NCBI RefSeq assembly: GCF_016921195.1
Contig: NZ_JAFGYF010000002.1
Span: 310,001 to 374,000 of the forward strand
Direction of reading: 5' to 3'
DNA length: 64,000 nucleotides
Origin: Cellulosimicrobium cellulans
GTDB lineage: Bacteria; Actinomycetota; Actinomycetes; Actinomycetales; Cellulomonadaceae
A program made the position numbers and the translations under genes. Below are positions 1,839 through 9,545 of this stretch, in pieces (within the stretch, counting starts at the first letter, position 1; every line of letters begins with the position of its first letter). The notes beneath the pieces are model-generated. The model was not told where the DNA came from. It saw nothing but the letters and a program-made list of their open reading frames with translations, and searched no databases.

Positions 1839-2708
1839 GTGCAGACCCGTACCCGGCCCGTGCTGCGCTCGCGGGCGTGGCCGGCCGCCGGGGGAGCGCT
1901 CGTCGCGCTCGTGCTCGTCGCGGCGACCGTCGGCGTCGACTCCCCGGTCGCGGCCCTCGTGGCCCTCCTCGCGCTGGCGGCGACGACCGTGACGGTGCTC
2001 GTGTGGGCGCTCGTGCGCTCTCGTCGCGAGCGGCGCCGCTACGAGGACGAGCTCACGGCGTGGGCCGCCGAGCGCGCGACCCAGGCGGAGCGGCTGCGCA
2101 TCGCGCGCGACCTGCACGACCTCGCGTCGCACGGGCTCGGACTCATCACCGTGCGCGCGGCCTCCGCCCGGTCGGTCAGCGGCCCCGGGGCGGACGCGGA
2201 GCGTGCGCGCGCGCTGGCCGACGTGGAGCGCGCCGGCCGTGCGGCGACGAGCGAGCTGCGTCGGATGCTCGCGCTCCTGCGCTCTCCGGGCGAGCGTCCC
2301 GACCACGGGTCCGCGCTGCGACCCGCCGAGACCCTGGACGACCTGCCGCGCGTGGTCGCGGAGGCGCGCTCCGCGGGGCTCCACGTGGTCCTCGAGGCTG
2401 CGGACCTGCCGGCGGTGCCCGGGAGCACCGCCCAGGCCGTGTGCACCGTGGCCCGCGAGGCGCTCGCGAACGTGCTGCGGCACGCCGGGCCGACGCACGC
2501 GCGCGTCGTGCTCTCGCACGACCGTGCGGCGCTGCGCCTGGTCGTCGACGACGACGGCCCCGTCCCCGGCTGGCGTGCGCACCGTGGCGCGGGTGCGGGA
2601 CTGCTGGGCCTGCGCGAGCGCGTGACCGCGCTGGGCGGCTCGATCACCGCCGGGCCCGGTGCCCGCGGGTACCGGCTCGTGGCGACCTGGCCGGGGGAGC
2701 CCGGGTGA
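1839..2708 (+). CDS. NarL-family sensor histidine kinase
   Basis: The 289-residue membrane kinase has two hydrophobic segments (about residues 17-32 and 37-57) and no extracellular domain of any size. A HisKA_3 dimerisation helix follows with RIARDLHDLASHGLG (phospho-acceptor His93; the second residue block is DLASHGL rather than the usual DVVAHHL). The HATPase_c domain carries the N box REALANVLRHAG, a VVDDDGP G1 box and GLLGLRERVTALGG. The GTG start at 1839 is chosen because a -10 hexamer sits seven bases upstream and the upstream in-frame sequence is antisense to the ATPase. The response regulator begins eight bases after the stop. Such short-sensor kinases often sense through the partner ABC transporter. 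Confidence 0.88.
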   Translation: MQTRTRPVLRSRAWPAAGGALVALVLVAATVGVDSPVAALVALLALAATTVTVLVWALVRSRRERRRYEDELTAWAAERATQAERLRIARDLHDLASHGLGLITVRAASARSVSGPGADAERARALADVERAGRAATSELRRMLALLRSPGERPDHGSALRPAETLDDLPRVVAEARSAGLHVVLEAADLPAVPGSTAQAVCTVAREALANVLRHAGPTHARVVLSHDRAALRLVVDDDGPVPGWRAHRGAGAGLLGLRERVTALGGSITAGPGARGYRLVATWPGEPG

Positions 2709-2715
2709 GCGGCCG

Positions 2716-3426
2716 ATGAACGAGGCGGTGCGGGTCCTCGTCGCGGACGACCAGCCGCTCATGCGGCACTCGCTGCGCCTCGTGCTCGACGGCGCGACGG
2801 GCGTCCAGGTCGTCGGCATGGCCGGTTCGGGAGACGAGGCGGTGGCGCTCACGCGCGCCGCGCGCCCCGACGTCGTGCTGATGGACGTCCGTATGCCCCA
2901 CGGCGACGGGATCGCCGCGACCCGCCGGATCGTCGCGGACCCCGACCTTGCGACCACGCGCGTGCTCGTGCTGAGCATGTTCGAGCTCGACGAGCTCGTG
3001 CACGGCGCCCTGCGCGCGGGGGCGAGCGGGTTTCTCCTCAAGGATGCCGAGCCGCAGACGCTCGTCGACGCCGTCCGGCGCACGCACGCCGGGGAGTCCC
3101 TCTTCGCGCCCTCGATCCTCACGCGCATCGTCGCCCACTACGTCGACCGGCCCTCCAGACCGCCGACCGCACCGGCCGCGCTCACGCCGCGCGAGGCGCA
3201 GGTCCTCGCCCTGGTCGGGCAGGGGCTGTCCAACCAGGAGATCACCACGCACCTGACGATCTCGATGGGCACCGTGAAGACCCACGTCGGCAACCTCCTC
3301 GCCAAGCTCGGGGCACGCGACCGGGCGCAGCTCGTCATCGCCGCGTACGAGCACGGGCTCGTCGCCCCCGACGTGTCGGGACGGGCCGACCCCGGAGCCC
3401 GCGGCGAGGCTACGCTCCGGCCATGA
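2716..3426 (+). CDS. NarL/LuxR-family response regulator
   Basis: The 236-residue protein has a receiver domain at about residues 5-120 (acidic pocket VADDQ, phospho-acceptor Asp in VVLMDVRMP, conserved Lys in FLLKDAEP) and a LuxR-type helix-turn-helix at about 150-215 (LTPREAQVLALVGQGLSNQEI, TVKTHVGNLLAKL). It is the partner of the preceding kinase and is likely to regulate the divergent ABC exporter operon. The start at 2716 lies eight bases after the kinase stop. The final TGA overlaps the ATG of the next gene (ATGA), so the next gene is probably co-translated. Confidence 0.92.
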   Translation: MNEAVRVLVADDQPLMRHSLRLVLDGATGVQVVGMAGSGDEAVALTRAARPDVVLMDVRMPHGDGIAATRRIVADPDLATTRVLVLSMFELDELVHGALRAGASGFLLKDAEPQTLVDAVRRTHAGESLFAPSILTRIVAHYVDRPSRPPTAPAALTPREAQVLALVGQGLSNQEITTHLTISMGTVKTHVGNLLAKLGARDRAQLVIAAYEHGLVAPDVSGRADPGARGEATLRP

Positions 3427-4041: not shown

Positions 4042-5610
4042 TCAGCAGGCGGGCGCGGCGTGCTCGATCCGCTCGACCCGCTCGGCACCCCCACCGCCCA
4101 CCGTGCGCGCCGTGACCGACACGACCCCGGCGCTCGGCGTCGTTCGCACCGCGAAGGACTGGTACGCGCTCGACCCGGGCGCGACGCCCGTGAACGACCT
4201 CGACCCGTAGGCGGTCTCGACGTCGACGTCGAGCGCGACGTCGTCCGTGTTGGCGACGCGGACCGCGACGTACGGGGTCCCGGCGAGGCACCGCAGGCGC
4301 ACGTCCGTCGCGATCGACGGCCCGTCGCCGACGAGGAGGTCGAGCGGGATCGAGTCGGCGATGGCCTGCTGCCCGGCGACGTTGGCGTGCACGCCGTCGC
4401 CGGTGTCGTACGGCGGGTAGATCGAGTCGGGGTTCGCCGGATCCCGCAGGACGGCGTCGAAGTCGAGGACGCCGTCGCACGAGCCGTCGCAGTCGCCACC
4501 CGCACGCACGACGTCGTTGACGGCGCGGCGGTACTGGTTCTGGAGCGCGGTGTACCCGGGGCGCGGGGTGATGGGGGTGACGAAGACCCTGATGCCCTCG
4601 GCGCGCAGCCGCTCGAAGATCTCCTCGTAGCTCGCCAGGATCGTGGCGTCGGTGCAGCCGTTCGCCAGGTCGTTGGTGCCGTAGTAGAAGATCACGCCCG
4701 TGACCCCGTGCAGGGCGAGCACGTCGCGCTCGAGGCGCGAGACGCCGTCGTTCCCGCCGGCCCCGCACGCGGGCGAGGAGGTCGTGCCGCTGATCCCCCC
4801 GTTGACGATCGCGACCTGCTGCGACGGCGGCAGCTCGGCGGCGACGCGGCGCGCGAGGTCGTCGGTCCAGCGCCGGTCCTGGCCGAACGCGTCGCAGCCC
4901 GGCCCGCAGTTCTCGCTGCCCACGCCGTCGACCACCGAGCTCCCGTAGGCGACGATCGTGCCCACGACGTCCGCGTCGTACACGTCGACCGCGCTGACGA
5001 AGTACGTCCATGGCAGGTTCTCGGTGAACGACGCACCGGAGACCTCGGCGTTGAGGTTGCCCGACCCGGTCGGCGCCCCGTAGTTGTTGCGCCCCGCGCG
5101 GTCGTGCAGGCTCGCGACGGTGGGCCTGGCCAGGTAGAACGTCACGGCGAGCTCGTCGAGGTCGTCGGTGGCGATGCTCGTCGGGTCGCTCCACACCTCT
5201 CCGCCCACGGGGATCGTCACGCTCTCGGCGCCGCCGAAGGTGAGGACGCGGTCGGTGCCCGCGACGATCGCCGGTCCTCCCGCGCTCAGGGCGAGCGACG
5301 TCTGGTCGATGACGACCGGTCCGACCCCGTACTGGTTCTGGAGCCGGATCCGCACGGCGTCCCCGCCCTGGCTCAGGCGGGTGACCATACGCATCGACTG
5401 GTTCGCGAAGTTCTTGGTGGAGACGCGCTGCTGGGACTGGGCCCAGCTCGTGAACCAGCCGGCATCGTCGGGCCGAGGCGAGTCGGCGGCGGACGCCGTT
5501 CCGAGACCCGTCAGGACGAGCCCGACAGCCGTCAGGGCGGCGAGCAGCGTGCGACGCCTGCGCCGCGGGGCGCGTGCGGTGCGGTGGGCTGGTTCGTGAG
5601 CGAGTGGCAT
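4042..5610 (-). CDS. Secreted SGNH/GDSL-type esterase
   Basis: The 522-residue exported hydrolase has a signal peptide with an Arg run (RRRRR) followed by TLLAALTAVGLVLTGLGTASA. The N-terminal half (to about residue 185) is beta-rich, as in SGNH enzymes with an accessory jelly-roll. The SGNH blocks follow: AYGSSVVDGVG (block I; GSS instead of GDS), a Gly block NGGISG, block III FYYGTNDL, and block V DGVHANVAGQQA with the Asp/His pair. A C-terminal domain of about 95 residues ends the protein. The start at 5610 is preferred over one at 5664 because it places the Arg-rich n-region at the N terminus. Likely function is deacylation of polysaccharide esters or lipids outside the cell; the substrate is unknown. 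Confidence 0.82.
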   Translation of the reverse strand: MPLAHEPAHRTARAPRRRRRTLLAALTAVGLVLTGLGTASAADSPRPDDAGWFTSWAQSQQRVSTKNFANQSMRMVTRLSQGGDAVRIRLQNQYGVGPVVIDQTSLALSAGGPAIVAGTDRVLTFGGAESVTIPVGGEVWSDPTSIATDDLDELAVTFYLARPTVASLHDRAGRNNYGAPTGSGNLNAEVSGASFTENLPWTYFVSAVDVYDADVVGTIVAYGSSVVDGVGSENCGPGCDAFGQDRRWTDDLARRVAAELPPSQQVAIVNGGISGTTSSPACGAGGNDGVSRLERDVLALHGVTGVIFYYGTNDLANGCTDATILASYEEIFERLRAEGIRVFVTPITPRPGYTALQNQYRRAVNDVVRAGGDCDGSCDGVLDFDAVLRDPANPDSIYPPYDTGDGVHANVAGQQAIADSIPLDLLVGDGPSIATDVRLRCLAGTPYVAVRVANTDDVALDVDVETAYGSRSFTGVAPGSSAYQSFAVRTTPSAGVVSVTARTVGGGGAERVERIEHAAPAC

Positions 5611-5745
5611 CCGGGCGTCCCTCGGCGTTGAGGTTGATAGCGGTGTCACGAGGGAACCTAGCACCGTTCGCCCCGTCCGACGCGCGGACGGCGGCCGGAC
5701 CCGCGAGGGACCGGCCGCCGTCGGGCAGGAGCGCCGTGCCCCGGT

Positions 5746-7596
5746 TCAGCCGAGCGGGCCGTACAGCGCCGGCGACGTGCGCGCGTGGGTCGCCTGCTCG
5801 AGCGCGAACGCCAGGCCGAGCAGCGGGCCCTCGTCGAAGTCGCGGCCGAGCAGCTCGAGGTTGACCCCGCCCCCCGCGACCGTCGCGTCGGCGGCTGTCG
5901 CCTGGCCGATCGGCACGGTCACCGCGGGGAGCCCCGTGTTGGGGCTGAGCCGCAGGTTGGTGCCGATCGTCCCGTAGGGGTTCGCGCTGGGGTAGACGAG
6001 CGCGTCGAGGTCGGCGTCGTCCAGCATCGCGGTGACGAGCTGCTTGCCCTCGGCGAGCACCTTCGTGTGCGTGCCCTCAGGACCGGCCCACGCCTCGTAC
6101 GCCTCCGCGGTGACGGCGTCGCGCGACACGTAGGTGCTGCGCCGCGACGGGACGAACCGCCCGGACTCGACGATGCCCGTCAGCGACCGTGCCTCGACGT
6201 CGGGCGAGAGGTGGTTCGCGACGTACTCGTCCAGGTCGTGCTTGAACTCGTTCGTCGAGCCCGACCCCTCGTTGAGCACGCTGGCGAACCCGCCGGGGAG
6301 CACCGGCGACCACGTCGTGGGTGGCGTCACCTCGACGACGGTCGCGCCGAGCGACTCCAGCGTGGCCCGCGTCTGCGCCCACAGGCGCAGGGTCGTGGCG
6401 TTGCTCCCCAGCATGGACGGCACGTACCCGATGCGGGCGCCGTCGAGCGCGTCCGCGTCCAGGTACTGCGTGTACGACGTCGGGACCTCGCCCTCCTGGC
6501 GCGCCGTGACCGGGTCCGCGGGGTCGACGCCGACCACGGCGTCGAGCGCGACCGCCGCGTCGAGGACGCTGCGCGCCATGGGCCCGCCCGTGTCCTGGCT
6601 CAGCGCGAGCGGGATGATGCCGTCGCGGCTCGCGAGGCCGACGGTCGGGCGCACGCCGACGAGCTGGTTGTACGACGACGGGACGCGGATCGAGCCGCCC
6701 GTGTCCGTGCCGAACCCGATGCCCGCCAGGTTGGCGGCGATCGCCGCGCCCGTGCCGCCGCTGGACCCGCCGGCCGTGCGGCTCGTGACGTACGGGCTCG
6801 CGACCAGGGTGCTGGTCCCCGCGTCCTGGAACGCCGAGAACTCGGACACGAAGCCGAACGCGAACTCGTCGAGGCTCGCCTTGGCGAGGATCACCGCACC
6901 GTCGGCGCGCAGTCCCTCGACCATCGCGGCGTCCGTCGCGGTCTGGTTGCCGTCCCAGCAACCACAGCCCCCGGTGGTGGGCATGTCCTTCGTGTCGTAG
7001 TTGTCCTTGACGGCGACGGGCACACCGAGGAGCAGGCTGGTCATCCCGTCCGCCGTGCGGACGGCGTCGGCGCGCGCCGCCGCGTCGAGCGCGACGTCGC
7101 TCGTGCTGATGATCGAGTGCAGCGGCCGTCCGCCCGCGCCCGTGTCGACGAGCGTGGTGTCGTAGGCCGCGATGCGGTCCAGGTACTCCTGGGTGATCTC
7201 GACGGACGACGTGACGCCGGCGTTCATCGCCGCCTGCATGTCGAGCACCGAGGCCTCGACGAGCTCGAACGGCCCGTCGTCGTAGATCATCCGCTGGGAG
7301 ACGGCGGCGAGGTCCGCGACGGTGATCGTGCCGTCGGCGTCCGTGTCGGCCGCCGCGACGGCGTCCCACGCGGCGTCGTCGGTCGTGGCACCGAGCGCCG
7401 CGGCGACGACGGCGAGGTCGTCGACCGTGACCTGGTCGTCGCCCGTGAGGTCGAGCTCCGTCCAGTACGGCGCGAGGATCGGCGGCGCGGCGGGTGCCGC
7501 CGTCGCGCCCGGAGCCGCGACGACGGCGAGCACGAGACCGGCCGCGGTGAGCGCGGCGAGCCCGCCCGTCGCTGCTCGTCGGTGGGTGGTGGGCAC
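5746..7596 (-). CDS. Secreted amidase-signature hydrolase with N-terminal dockerin module
   Basis: The 616-residue exported protein has a signal peptide ending about residue 34 (GATAAPAAP). A dockerin-type module at about 49-104 has two Ca-loop repeats, DLTGDDQVTVDD and DTDADGTITVAD. An amidase-signature domain follows with catalytic Lys197 (PVAVKDNY), cis-Ser278 (GGSSGG) and nucleophile Ser302 (TDTGGS); the 24-residue spacing between the serines is typical of the family. I prefer the GTG at 7596, which has an AAGGAG ribosome site at 7603-7608. An in-frame ATG at 7683 overlaps the cohesin stop (ATGA) and would place 29 extra residues before the signal peptide. The gene directly follows a cohesin gene, so surface docking of this enzyme is likely. 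The amide substrate is unknown. Confidence 0.85.
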   Translation of the reverse strand: MPTTHRRAATGGLAALTAAGLVLAVVAAPGATAAPAAPPILAPYWTELDLTGDDQVTVDDLAVVAAALGATTDDAAWDAVAAADTDADGTITVADLAAVSQRMIYDDGPFELVEASVLDMQAAMNAGVTSSVEITQEYLDRIAAYDTTLVDTGAGGRPLHSIISTSDVALDAAARADAVRTADGMTSLLLGVPVAVKDNYDTKDMPTTGGCGCWDGNQTATDAAMVEGLRADGAVILAKASLDEFAFGFVSEFSAFQDAGTSTLVASPYVTSRTAGGSSGGTGAAIAANLAGIGFGTDTGGSIRVPSSYNQLVGVRPTVGLASRDGIIPLALSQDTGGPMARSVLDAAVALDAVVGVDPADPVTARQEGEVPTSYTQYLDADALDGARIGYVPSMLGSNATTLRLWAQTRATLESLGATVVEVTPPTTWSPVLPGGFASVLNEGSGSTNEFKHDLDEYVANHLSPDVEARSLTGIVESGRFVPSRRSTYVSRDAVTAEAYEAWAGPEGTHTKVLAEGKQLVTAMLDDADLDALVYPSANPYGTIGTNLRLSPNTGLPAVTVPIGQATAADATVAGGGVNLELLGRDFDEGPLLGLAFALEQATHARTSPALYGPLG

Positions 7597-7679
7597 GGGC
7601 TGCTCCTTCGAGGCGTGACGGACCCGGCGCGCGGGCACGGCGGGTACGGCGGTGGGGCGGGTGCTCGTCAGGTCGGGGG

Positions 7680-8426
7680 TCATCGCGAGGCCACCGCCCG
7701 TCGGCGCGCCCAGAGGATGCCGATGCCCACCGCGACGGCGAGCAGGGCAGCACCGACGAACCACGCGACGCTCGCGCCCGTCGAGGCGAGCGGACCCGAC
7801 CCGGCCGAGGTCGACGGCGAGTCGGACGCGCCGTCGGTCCCGGGGGCGGTCGTGGCGCCGCCCGTCGGGGGCGCGGAGGTGGCGCCGTCCGTCGGGTCGT
7901 CCGTGGGAGGCGTCGTCACCGTGGCACCGATGGTCGTCGTGGCGGTCGCGGCATCCGTCAGCGACGCCGTCGTGGTGTCGGCACCGACGAGGGTGGCGGC
8001 GGGGACGGCGAACGAGGCGTCGCCGTCGGCCACGGCGGTGAAGGTGAGCGTCGCGAGCGTGACGTCGCCCTCGAGACCGGGGGACGTGCCGAGCCGCGTG
8101 TGCGTGACCGAGACGGTCCCGGCCGCGTCGTCGGCGACGTCGGAGAACCCGCCGTCGGGCGTGACGGCGGAGTCCTCGACGAGCTCGACGAGGTCGGGGT
8201 CGTACGAGACCGTCAGGTCGTAGGCGTAGAGGTCGACGGCACCGGTCGCGGCGACGGTCACCGTGATCGGGTCGTCCACCTCGACCGTCGACGGCGCGTC
8301 GACGGCCACGTCGGAGACCGACGGCGCGGCCTGTGCCGGGGCGGTGAGGGCGGCCGCGGCGGCCGCCAGGCCGCCGACGAGCGCGGCGCGCCGGCCGTGT
8401 CGCCGGCGCGAAGGGGAGATGGTCAT
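7680..8426 (-). CDS. Cell-wall-anchored cohesin-domain protein (LAxTG sortase substrate)
   Basis: The 248-residue exported protein starts with an Arg-rich signal peptide (cleavage likely after AQA33). A single cohesin-like beta domain lies at about 38-168, with the family features of a DPITVTV strand, YAYDLTVSYDPDLVELVE, and late VTLATLTFTA strands. A Pro/Thr/Ser/Gly-rich linker (about 172-211) follows, then LASTG at 213-217, a membrane helix and RRRAVASR. LAxTG is the motif recognised by class E sortases in actinobacteria, so attachment to peptidoglycan is expected. The start at 8426 follows a GGAAGGA site. It is the first gene of a pair with the dockerin amidase; the cohesin would display that enzyme on the surface. 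Cohesin assignment is by pattern. Confidence 0.8.
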   Translation of the reverse strand: MTISPSRRRHGRRAALVGGLAAAAAALTAPAQAAPSVSDVAVDAPSTVEVDDPITVTVAATGAVDLYAYDLTVSYDPDLVELVEDSAVTPDGGFSDVADDAAGTVSVTHTRLGTSPGLEGDVTLATLTFTAVADGDASFAVPAATLVGADTTTASLTDAATATTTIGATVTTPPTDDPTDGATSAPPTGGATTAPGTDGASDSPSTSAGSGPLASTGASVAWFVGAALLAVAVGIGILWARRRAVASR

Positions 8427-8708
8427 GGGGGAGCGGGTCCTTCCTCGACGCGCGCCGGACTGCGCGCGCAACCGCGGTGGTGTGGAGCCCCCTGCCGGGA
8501 CCGATGCTCACAAGTGCCTGTTTCCCGGGCGTTTCACGACGGTTAGCGCGAGCAACGAAGGGAGTCTCGGTCTGGTCACGGACCACGCCCGTGCCAACGA
8601 CGCGGCGACGACGAGGGCGGACGTCGCCGCCGCGAGGAGCAGCGCAGGACGCCGGGCGGCGGGGTCGGTCGGCGGGCGGTGCCCGCGGCGCTCTGCCACC
8701 ATCGCCCT

Positions 8709-9545
8709 ATGGCTGCTGACGGGTGGCGCTCACGCCACGTGGAGGTGGAGGGGCACGACGTGTTCGTGCGCACCGGGCCCGAGGTGCCGGGGTCCGTGCC
8801 CATCGTCCACGTCCACGGGTTCGCGGTCTCGGGCACGTACCTCCTCCCGACGGCGGAGCTCCTCGCGCACCGGGCGACCGCCGTCGTCCCGGACCTGCCC
8901 GGCTACGGGCGCAGCGAGCGGTGGGACCACACCCTGGGGATCCCGTCGCTCGCGTGGGCGCTGCTCTCGCTGCTCGACGTGCTCGAGCTCGACCGCGTGG
9001 TCCTCGTCGGCAACTCGATGGGCGGCCCGATCAGCCTCGAGGTCGCGCACGCGGCGCCGGAGCGGGTCGCGGGCGTCGTGCTCGCCTCGCCGGCGGGAGG
9101 CGTGCACAACCAGCCGTTCTCGCGCGCCCTCACCCAGCTCGCGCGCGACGCCGGGCGCGAGAGCCCGCGCATGGCCCGCATCGCCGTGCCCGACTACGCG
9201 CGCTTCGGACCCGTCAACGCGCTGCACCTGTTCGCCGAGCTGGTCCGGTTCCCGTCGCTCGAGCGCGTGATCCGCGTGCCCGTGCCGACCCTGGCGGTCG
9301 TCGGCACGCGGGACCCGCTCATGCCGCCGCCCCGGCGGGTGCACGAGGTCGGCTCGCTCGCGCCGGCGCACGTGACGATCGCGGCGATCGACGGCGCCGC
9401 GCACGCCATGAACTTCAGCCATCCCGGCGAGCTCGCGCACGTCATCGAGTGCTGGCTCGACGGGCGGGAGATCACCGACGACCCCGACCAGCCGGGCGTC
9501 TCCCGCGTCCTCCAGATCGCCCAGGGGTCCGGCCCGGTGGTCTGA
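8709..9545 (+). CDS. Alpha/beta hydrolase
   Basis: The 278-residue cytoplasmic protein has a complete hydrolase triad: nucleophile Ser in the elbow GNSMGG, acidic residue in VVGTRDPL, and His in DGAAHAMNF. The oxyanion region is VHVHGFAVSG and DLPGYGRS follows strand 4. The start gives MAADGWRSRHVEVEGHDVFV, a normal family opening. It stands alone, with the cohesin operon upstream on the other strand and a winged-helix gene 38 bp downstream. The substrate cannot be inferred; members include esterases, lactonases and C-C hydrolases. Confidence 0.85.
   Translation: MAADGWRSRHVEVEGHDVFVRTGPEVPGSVPIVHVHGFAVSGTYLLPTAELLAHRATAVVPDLPGYGRSERWDHTLGIPSLAWALLSLLDVLELDRVVLVGNSMGGPISLEVAHAAPERVAGVVLASPAGGVHNQPFSRALTQLARDAGRESPRMARIAVPDYARFGPVNALHLFAELVRFPSLERVIRVPVPTLAVVGTRDPLMPPPRRVHEVGSLAPAHVTIAAIDGAAHAMNFSHPGELAHVIECWLDGREITDDPDQPGVSRVLQIAQGSGPVV

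Follow-up and report, generated by a model that had tools for sequence, protein, structure and literature searches.

Cohesin and dockerin modules are best known for holding cellulosomes together. ScaE of Ruminococcus flavefaciens is a single-cohesin protein with an LPXTG signal that is anchored by sortase (PMC2930009); single sortase-anchored cohesins are already known from this example, and so are cohesins outside cellulosomes. According to the accessible text of a 2015 paper, the genome of Cellulosimicrobium cellulans F16 has no cohesin or dockerin (PMC4562250), and available excerpts of another paper state the same of three cellulomonad genomes (PMC3544764). Cellulosome bacteria were surveyed by genome in 2024 with multi-cohesin proteins and dockerin-bearing glycosidases as the targets, and the main text of that survey leaves actinobacteria unmentioned. 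Here, we discuss a locus of C. cellulans in which one cohesin protein adjoins one dockerin-bearing amidase.

The cohesin protein and the dockerin-amidase

Positions 5746-8426 of the window (the whole stretch of 64,000 nucleotides that was analyzed) are filled by two minus-strand genes. Gene 1 (7680..8426, minus strand; ATG at 8426, stop at 7682-7680) encodes P0001, a secreted single-cohesin protein of 248 aa with a C-terminal class E sorting signal. It consists, in order, of a signal-peptide-like start, one cohesin, a linker rich in Thr, Pro and Asp, and the motif LASTG with a hydrophobic stretch and then a basic tail behind it; signal peptides were assessed by eye, with no predictor. The cohesin domain (residues 40-162; 7941..8309, minus strand) matched Pfam Cohesin (PF00963) at 44.2 bits, above the cut-off of 24.1, and the beta domain that the first-pass annotation had read as a cohesin took the cohesin beta-sandwich fold in a structure model. 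By both profile and fold, its closest relatives were the Clostridium perfringens cohesins 2jh2 and 2vo8. The conserved LGxSP within HTRLGTSP (residues 109-116; 8079..8102, minus strand) was present in 41/41 paired cohesins (see below) and in 0/2 orphan cohesins, both of one genus, which is only suggestive of a tie between this motif and pairing. LASTG (residues 213-217; 7776..7790, minus strand), followed by the hydrophobic stretch and basic tail down to position 7683, was assigned from the sequence and from the sortases of the genome: a class E sortase accepts LAXTG (PMC5148588), and the two class E sortases encoded in the window’s genome fit this motif. By its signal, P0001 is a putative class E sortase substrate, and linkage to the wall is predicted.

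Gene 2 (5746..7596, minus strand) encodes the secreted dockerin-amidase of 616 aa, counted from a probable GTG start at 7596. A longer frame of 645 aa, P0002, whose numbering we use, is open from ATG at 7683 and overlaps the stop of gene 1. With AAGGAG just upstream, GTG at 7596 is likely the better candidate for the start, and the V at its position was kept in 25/25 uncut rows of an alignment of 26 genomes, in which amino acids, not codons, were compared. The dockerin (residues 78-131; 7291..7452, minus strand) matched Dockerin_1 (PF00404) at 23.9 bits, narrowly above the cut-off of 22.9. It lies at about residues 49-102 in the 616-aa numbering, near the span of 49-104 proposed earlier. Its two 12-residue loops (residues 78-89 and 113-124) carry Asp at positions 1, 5 and 12 in the first and at 1 and 12 in the second, a pattern kept in 41/41 genomes. 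The EF-hand-like pair in P0002 is probably a dockerin, mainly because it co-occurs with a cohesin.

The catalytic domain (residues 162-565; 5989..7200, minus strand) matched Amidase (PF01425) at 255 bits, over the cut-off, and the motifs KDN, GGSSGG and DTGGSI were found in 41/41 amidases. Lys226, Ser307 and Ser331 of P0002 are, we assume, the Lys/Ser/Ser catalytic residues of the amidase signature family. The best solved match was peptide amidase (5ac3 and 1m21; 211 bits), a resemblance that makes small amides, perhaps C-terminal peptide amides, candidate substrates. With matches to PF00963, PF00404 and PF01425 and the LASTG signal in place, the central claim of the first-pass annotation, that a single sortase-type cohesin protein adjoins a dockerin-bearing amidase, holds.

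When the whole of the window’s genome was searched with Pfam (E <= 0.001), a single cohesin and a single dockerin were found. The family dockerin profile, applied to the same genome at E <= 1, gave one strong place and one chance-level place (E 0.64), and the proposed search for further dockerin proteins returned no other Pfam-level dockerin. With a single cohesin at E <= 0.001, a scaffoldin with several cohesins was not found, nor were dockerin-bearing glycoside hydrolases, the sole dockerin at this threshold sitting on the amidase. A cellulosome is ruled out, given that the genome holds no more than one cohesin and one dockerin at the Pfam level. Elsewhere in the window, a GDSL lipase gene lies just downstream of the pair (4042-5664, minus strand), and a LuxR-type response regulator gene (2659-3426, plus strand) adjoins what appear by eye to be a sensor kinase frame and an ABC transporter.

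Distribution and arrangement of the pair

We investigated the pair in 200 genomes of the window’s family (f1), in a draw of 394 genomes from the class and in 188 genomes of family f34; the larger groups are even draws, not full censuses. The cohesin and the dockerin-amidase occurred together in 41 genomes, related to one another, of which 26 belong to f1, 3 to f5 and 12 to f34, and a spread over 41 genomes argues against chance. A cohesin was present in 17/17 genomes of the window’s genus, contrary to what was stated for strain F16, which is itself outside this comparison. Within f1 (n = 200), PF00963 and PF00404 were each found in 26 genomes, and 24 genomes had both. The fetched stretches showed that all 26 f1 cohesin genomes carry the dockerin-amidase, including two that were overlooked by Pfam (G078 and G124), whose dockerins had no Pfam match at E <= 0.001 but were matched by phmmer. 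The two dockerin-only genomes (G037 and G122) had no such amidase in the fetched stretches and no cohesin match; their Pfam dockerins fitted the family profiles poorly and were not counted as members of the pair. As f1 dockerins were sought by Pfam only and two were missed in this way, a lone f1 dockerin-amidase could be overlooked.

Across the class (n = 394), the amidase subfamily (E <= 1e-90) and a strong dockerin match (E < 1e-30) fell in the same 9 genomes. All 9 dockerin-amidases adjoin a cohesin, that of G438 being seen only by the family profile. Cohesins above the Pfam cut-off were likewise found in 9 class genomes, only one of which (G509) was without the amidase. Weak dockerin-profile matches in 8 further class genomes (E 2.9e-4 to 0.0067) and a cohesin match below the cut-off in G590 were not counted. 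In f34 (n = 188), 12 genomes had a strong dockerin and 14 a cohesin; all 12 had both, and the two orphan cohesins (G509 and G629) come from one genus. Several genera (e.g., g20, g68 and g80) include some members with both modules and others with neither.

Pairing was one-to-one with two exceptions: G146 has two dockerin-amidase pieces, and in G058 a subtilase bears a further dockerin, which was left out of the count. The latter protein (S8 family; L064:486-4610, plus strand) carries a C-terminal Dockerin_1 match of 31.2 bits, and the family profile does not match this dockerin. In G604 (f34), a weak dockerin-profile match (E 2.7e-5), which was not counted, lies in a beta-helix protein whose single chain begins weakly cohesin-like and also includes a dockerin-like stretch (L183:2076-4568, minus strand).

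In 24 fetched stretches of relatives, reaching about 5 kb to each side, the other two genes that neighbor the pair in the window were found again in only 5/24 (GDSL lipase) and 9/24 (alpha/beta hydrolase). Since these flanking genes recur rarely in relatives, the conserved unit is the pair itself, and a larger conserved operon is ruled out. Among the matches listed for literature on cohesins and dockerins or on Cellulosimicrobium complexes, as represented by titles and the beginnings of abstracts, no description of such a pair was found, and an earlier mention is possible. The first-pass annotation had called the pair unusual; this is borne out to the extent that no described counterpart was found, whereas its recurrence as a module in three or more families shows that it is not a local oddity.

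Gene order differed among the families. In f1, the cohesin gene preceded the amidase gene in 19 genomes and followed it in 3; the order was unreadable in 4, one with another dockerin-amidase start beside the cohesin (G146) and three with the genes at contig ends (G040, G140 and G134). All three f5 genomes had the cohesin gene first (3/3). In f34, six genomes had the amidase gene first, and in another six (G736, G737, G648, G700, G716 and G740) dockerin, amidase and cohesin were fused, in that order, and followed by a C-terminal extension. Two fused proteins were scanned with Pfam: the cohesin was seen in G736 and not in G700, where it was found by the family profile, and the dockerin was below the cut-off in G700 and not listed in G736. 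Ig-like repeats in f34 amounted to Big_3_5 matches below the cut-off in fused G736 and orphan G509 only, with none in G427. A functional link is what natural fusion and the occurrence of both gene orders usually indicate.

In the cohesin tree, a branch with support of 99/96 separates the two gene orders, with contig-split genomes labelled as cohesin-first. In G058 (L063), the amidase groups with cohesin-first amidases and the cohesin with amidase-first cohesins, which suggests an exchange of partners. Distance correlations were 0.30 between amidase and cohesin and 0.42 between dockerin and cohesin, which is too weak to claim coevolution.

The upstream box

Upstream of gene 1, a box of the form CTAAC-n6-GAAAC-n6-GAAAC (8520..8546, minus strand; 93 bases to the ATG) fits published GlnR motifs, such as Gn2AC-n6-GnAACA of M. 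smegmatis (PMC3662644) and those collected in a list of published motifs (PMC10704036). Alignment of 13 upstream regions revealed a common series of CTnAC, GAAAC and GnAAC in 11-base steps. Over a 350-base region that stops 100 bases short of the first domain of the pair, 34/41 genomes had Gn2AC-n6-GnAAC in the sense direction and 0/41 in the antisense direction, and altered spacers of 4, 5, 7 and 8 bases were found in 1, 3, 3 and 5 of 41 genomes, respectively. A slightly wider pattern was likewise found in 34/41, compared with 1.33 expected from shuffles, and its rate elsewhere was 55/2752 pieces of the loci and 2/364 pieces of the window. The exact box was matched in at least one genome of each of 8/10 genera and in none of the regions upstream of the two orphan cohesins; 7/41 paired genomes had no exact match. 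The boxes were spotted by eye before counting, and hence the choice of pattern was not blind. The GlnR-type assignment is based on Gn2AC-n6-GnAAC; two stricter published patterns, gTnAC-n6-GaAAC of S. coelicolor and [TG]TAAC-n6-G[CA]AAC of M. smegmatis, were each found in 1/41.

Within the window, the short box motif is not rare by itself (2 seen, 4.2 expected), and the triple box had one match against 0.11 expected, a count reached by 10/100 shuffles; the weight of the box comes from its recurrence across genomes. According to a review and the title of a reference, MtrA binds GlnR boxes in Streptomyces, so the regulator may be GlnR or another protein sharing its boxes. Boxes of the nitrogen-control type suggest a purpose for the device, with GlnR as the candidate regulator. 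The GlnR-type boxes are directly followed by another conserved stretch, around TGTGAGCATC (8503-8513, minus strand). Scans of 5400-8750 found neither a sigma-70 promoter nor a terminator. A known RNA element upstream is ruled out, as 8400-8720 had no Rfam match up to E 1; at Rfam gathering thresholds, the whole window contained only a tRNA.

Interpretation and comparison with known systems

We consider it probable that the locus is a device of one anchor and one enzyme that frees nitrogen at the wall under control of the GlnR type. Under nitrogen shortage, transcription would be raised at 8520-8546 by GlnR or by another regulator that uses the same boxes, and both proteins would be made and exported. 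A class E sortase would link the secreted cohesin protein to the wall through LASTG, and the dockerin of the amidase would seat on the cohesin, probably with calcium. The amidase may then cut small amides near the cell to yield ammonium, which, being freed beside the cell, could be captured before diffusion carries it off. In f34, the same contact cannot serve a sortase anchor, and it may serve self-assembly. What was observed is the domains (by profile), the cohesin fold (by modelling), the occurrence of the pair in 41 genomes, in either gene order and as natural fusions, the conserved catalytic residues and the recurring upstream box. We infer that the two proteins bind, that calcium takes part and that the cohesin protein is linked to the wall, as well as what the substrate, the regulator and the purpose are.

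The arrangement in f34 also bears on what the contact is chiefly for. The cohesin protein ends in an LAxTG or LSxTG signal in 26/29 f1 and f5 genomes, and of the three exceptions two are cut by contig ends (G040 and G140), leaving G058 as truly without a signal. By contrast, none of the 12 f34 cohesin proteins has one (0/12): six are single chains carrying both dockerin and cohesin, and the six separate cohesin proteins end in other C-terminal extensions. Anchoring, which had been predicted from the C. cellulans locus as part of the device, is therefore well represented in f1 and f5 and cannot be a constant part of it. Self-assembly or a latch (for clustering, stabilisation or control) might accordingly be the chief role of the contact, with wall anchoring a later addition in f1 and f5; the f34 proteins speak for this, the regularity of the signal in f1 and f5 speaks against it, and on balance we regard it as unlikely, though it deserves consideration.

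Two further explanations concern the enzyme and its EF-hand-like pair. The amidase could act on amides of the cell’s own peptidoglycan, with the upstream boxes being MtrA sites tied to wall turnover. The binding of GlnR boxes by MtrA in Streptomyces and the predicted location of the anchor at the wall are compatible with such a role, which is nevertheless improbable: among solved enzymes the catalytic domain is closest to peptide amidase, and its patchy spread (9/394 class genomes at E <= 1e-90) is unlike that of a housekeeping wall enzyme. As for the EF-hand-like pair, solved-chain searches with the dockerin, one by single sequence and one by profile, placed calmodulins and calmodulin fusions first, with no dockerins among the best 60 of 213 and the best 60 of 210 matches, respectively, and the structure model of dockerin plus amidase was of low confidence (pLDDT 30.4). 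It could thus be imagined that the pair is an ordinary calcium module that does not bind the cohesin, the two genes being merely co-transcribed. However, Pfam gave Dockerin_1 and no EF-hand family in P0002 (E <= 0.01), both loops carry Asp at position 12 in 41/41 genomes, and co-occurrence with the cohesin extends over two gene orders and fusions. Position 12 of EF-hand loops is usually Glu. We consider an ordinary calcium module highly improbable.

Beyond the nitrogen-freeing device proposed for this locus, a broader claim would be that of a new cohesin-dockerin system dedicated to nitrogen, not polysaccharide, in which at least three actinomycete families use a GlnR-controlled amidase that has a cohesin of its own and is displayed on the wall in certain lineages or, in one family, fused to it. 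We advance this tentatively, judging it slightly short of an even chance; under it, the fused dockerin-amidase-cohesin chain could latch onto itself or form head-to-tail polymers. If true, the amidase-dedicated pair would be a simple case of cohesin-dockerin use for nitrogen capture in soil actinomycetes, and protein engineering could gain from it a new orthogonal pair of cohesin and dockerin.

Like the cohesin studied here, that of Archaeoglobus fulgidus (2xdh) is non-cellulosomal; to our knowledge, neither an amidase nor a sortase signal is associated with it. The C. perfringens cohesins 2jh2 and 2vo8 also lie outside cellulosomes; judging from their entry titles, they are situated within a glycoside hydrolase, whereas here the cohesin is a separate anchor or is fused to the amidase. 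Peptide amidase (5ac3 and 1m21) resembles the catalytic domain of P0002 as its best solved match, and because the match spans residues 14-495 of 514, nearly the whole chain, no dockerin would be expected there. The GlnR regulon of actinomycetes shares the box sequence with its 6-base spacer, but the available parts of its descriptions name no cohesin or dockerin gene (PMC3662644, PMC3087709 and PMC10704036). ScaE and, by prediction, P0001 have a common plan, in which a protein anchored by sortase bears a single cohesin and thereby keeps a dockerin-bearing partner at the wall. ScaE, however, holds a cellulosome (ScaB and CttA), whereas the protein described here, from an actinomycete with no multi-cohesin scaffoldin, bears a class E LAxTG signal and would hold a single amidase.
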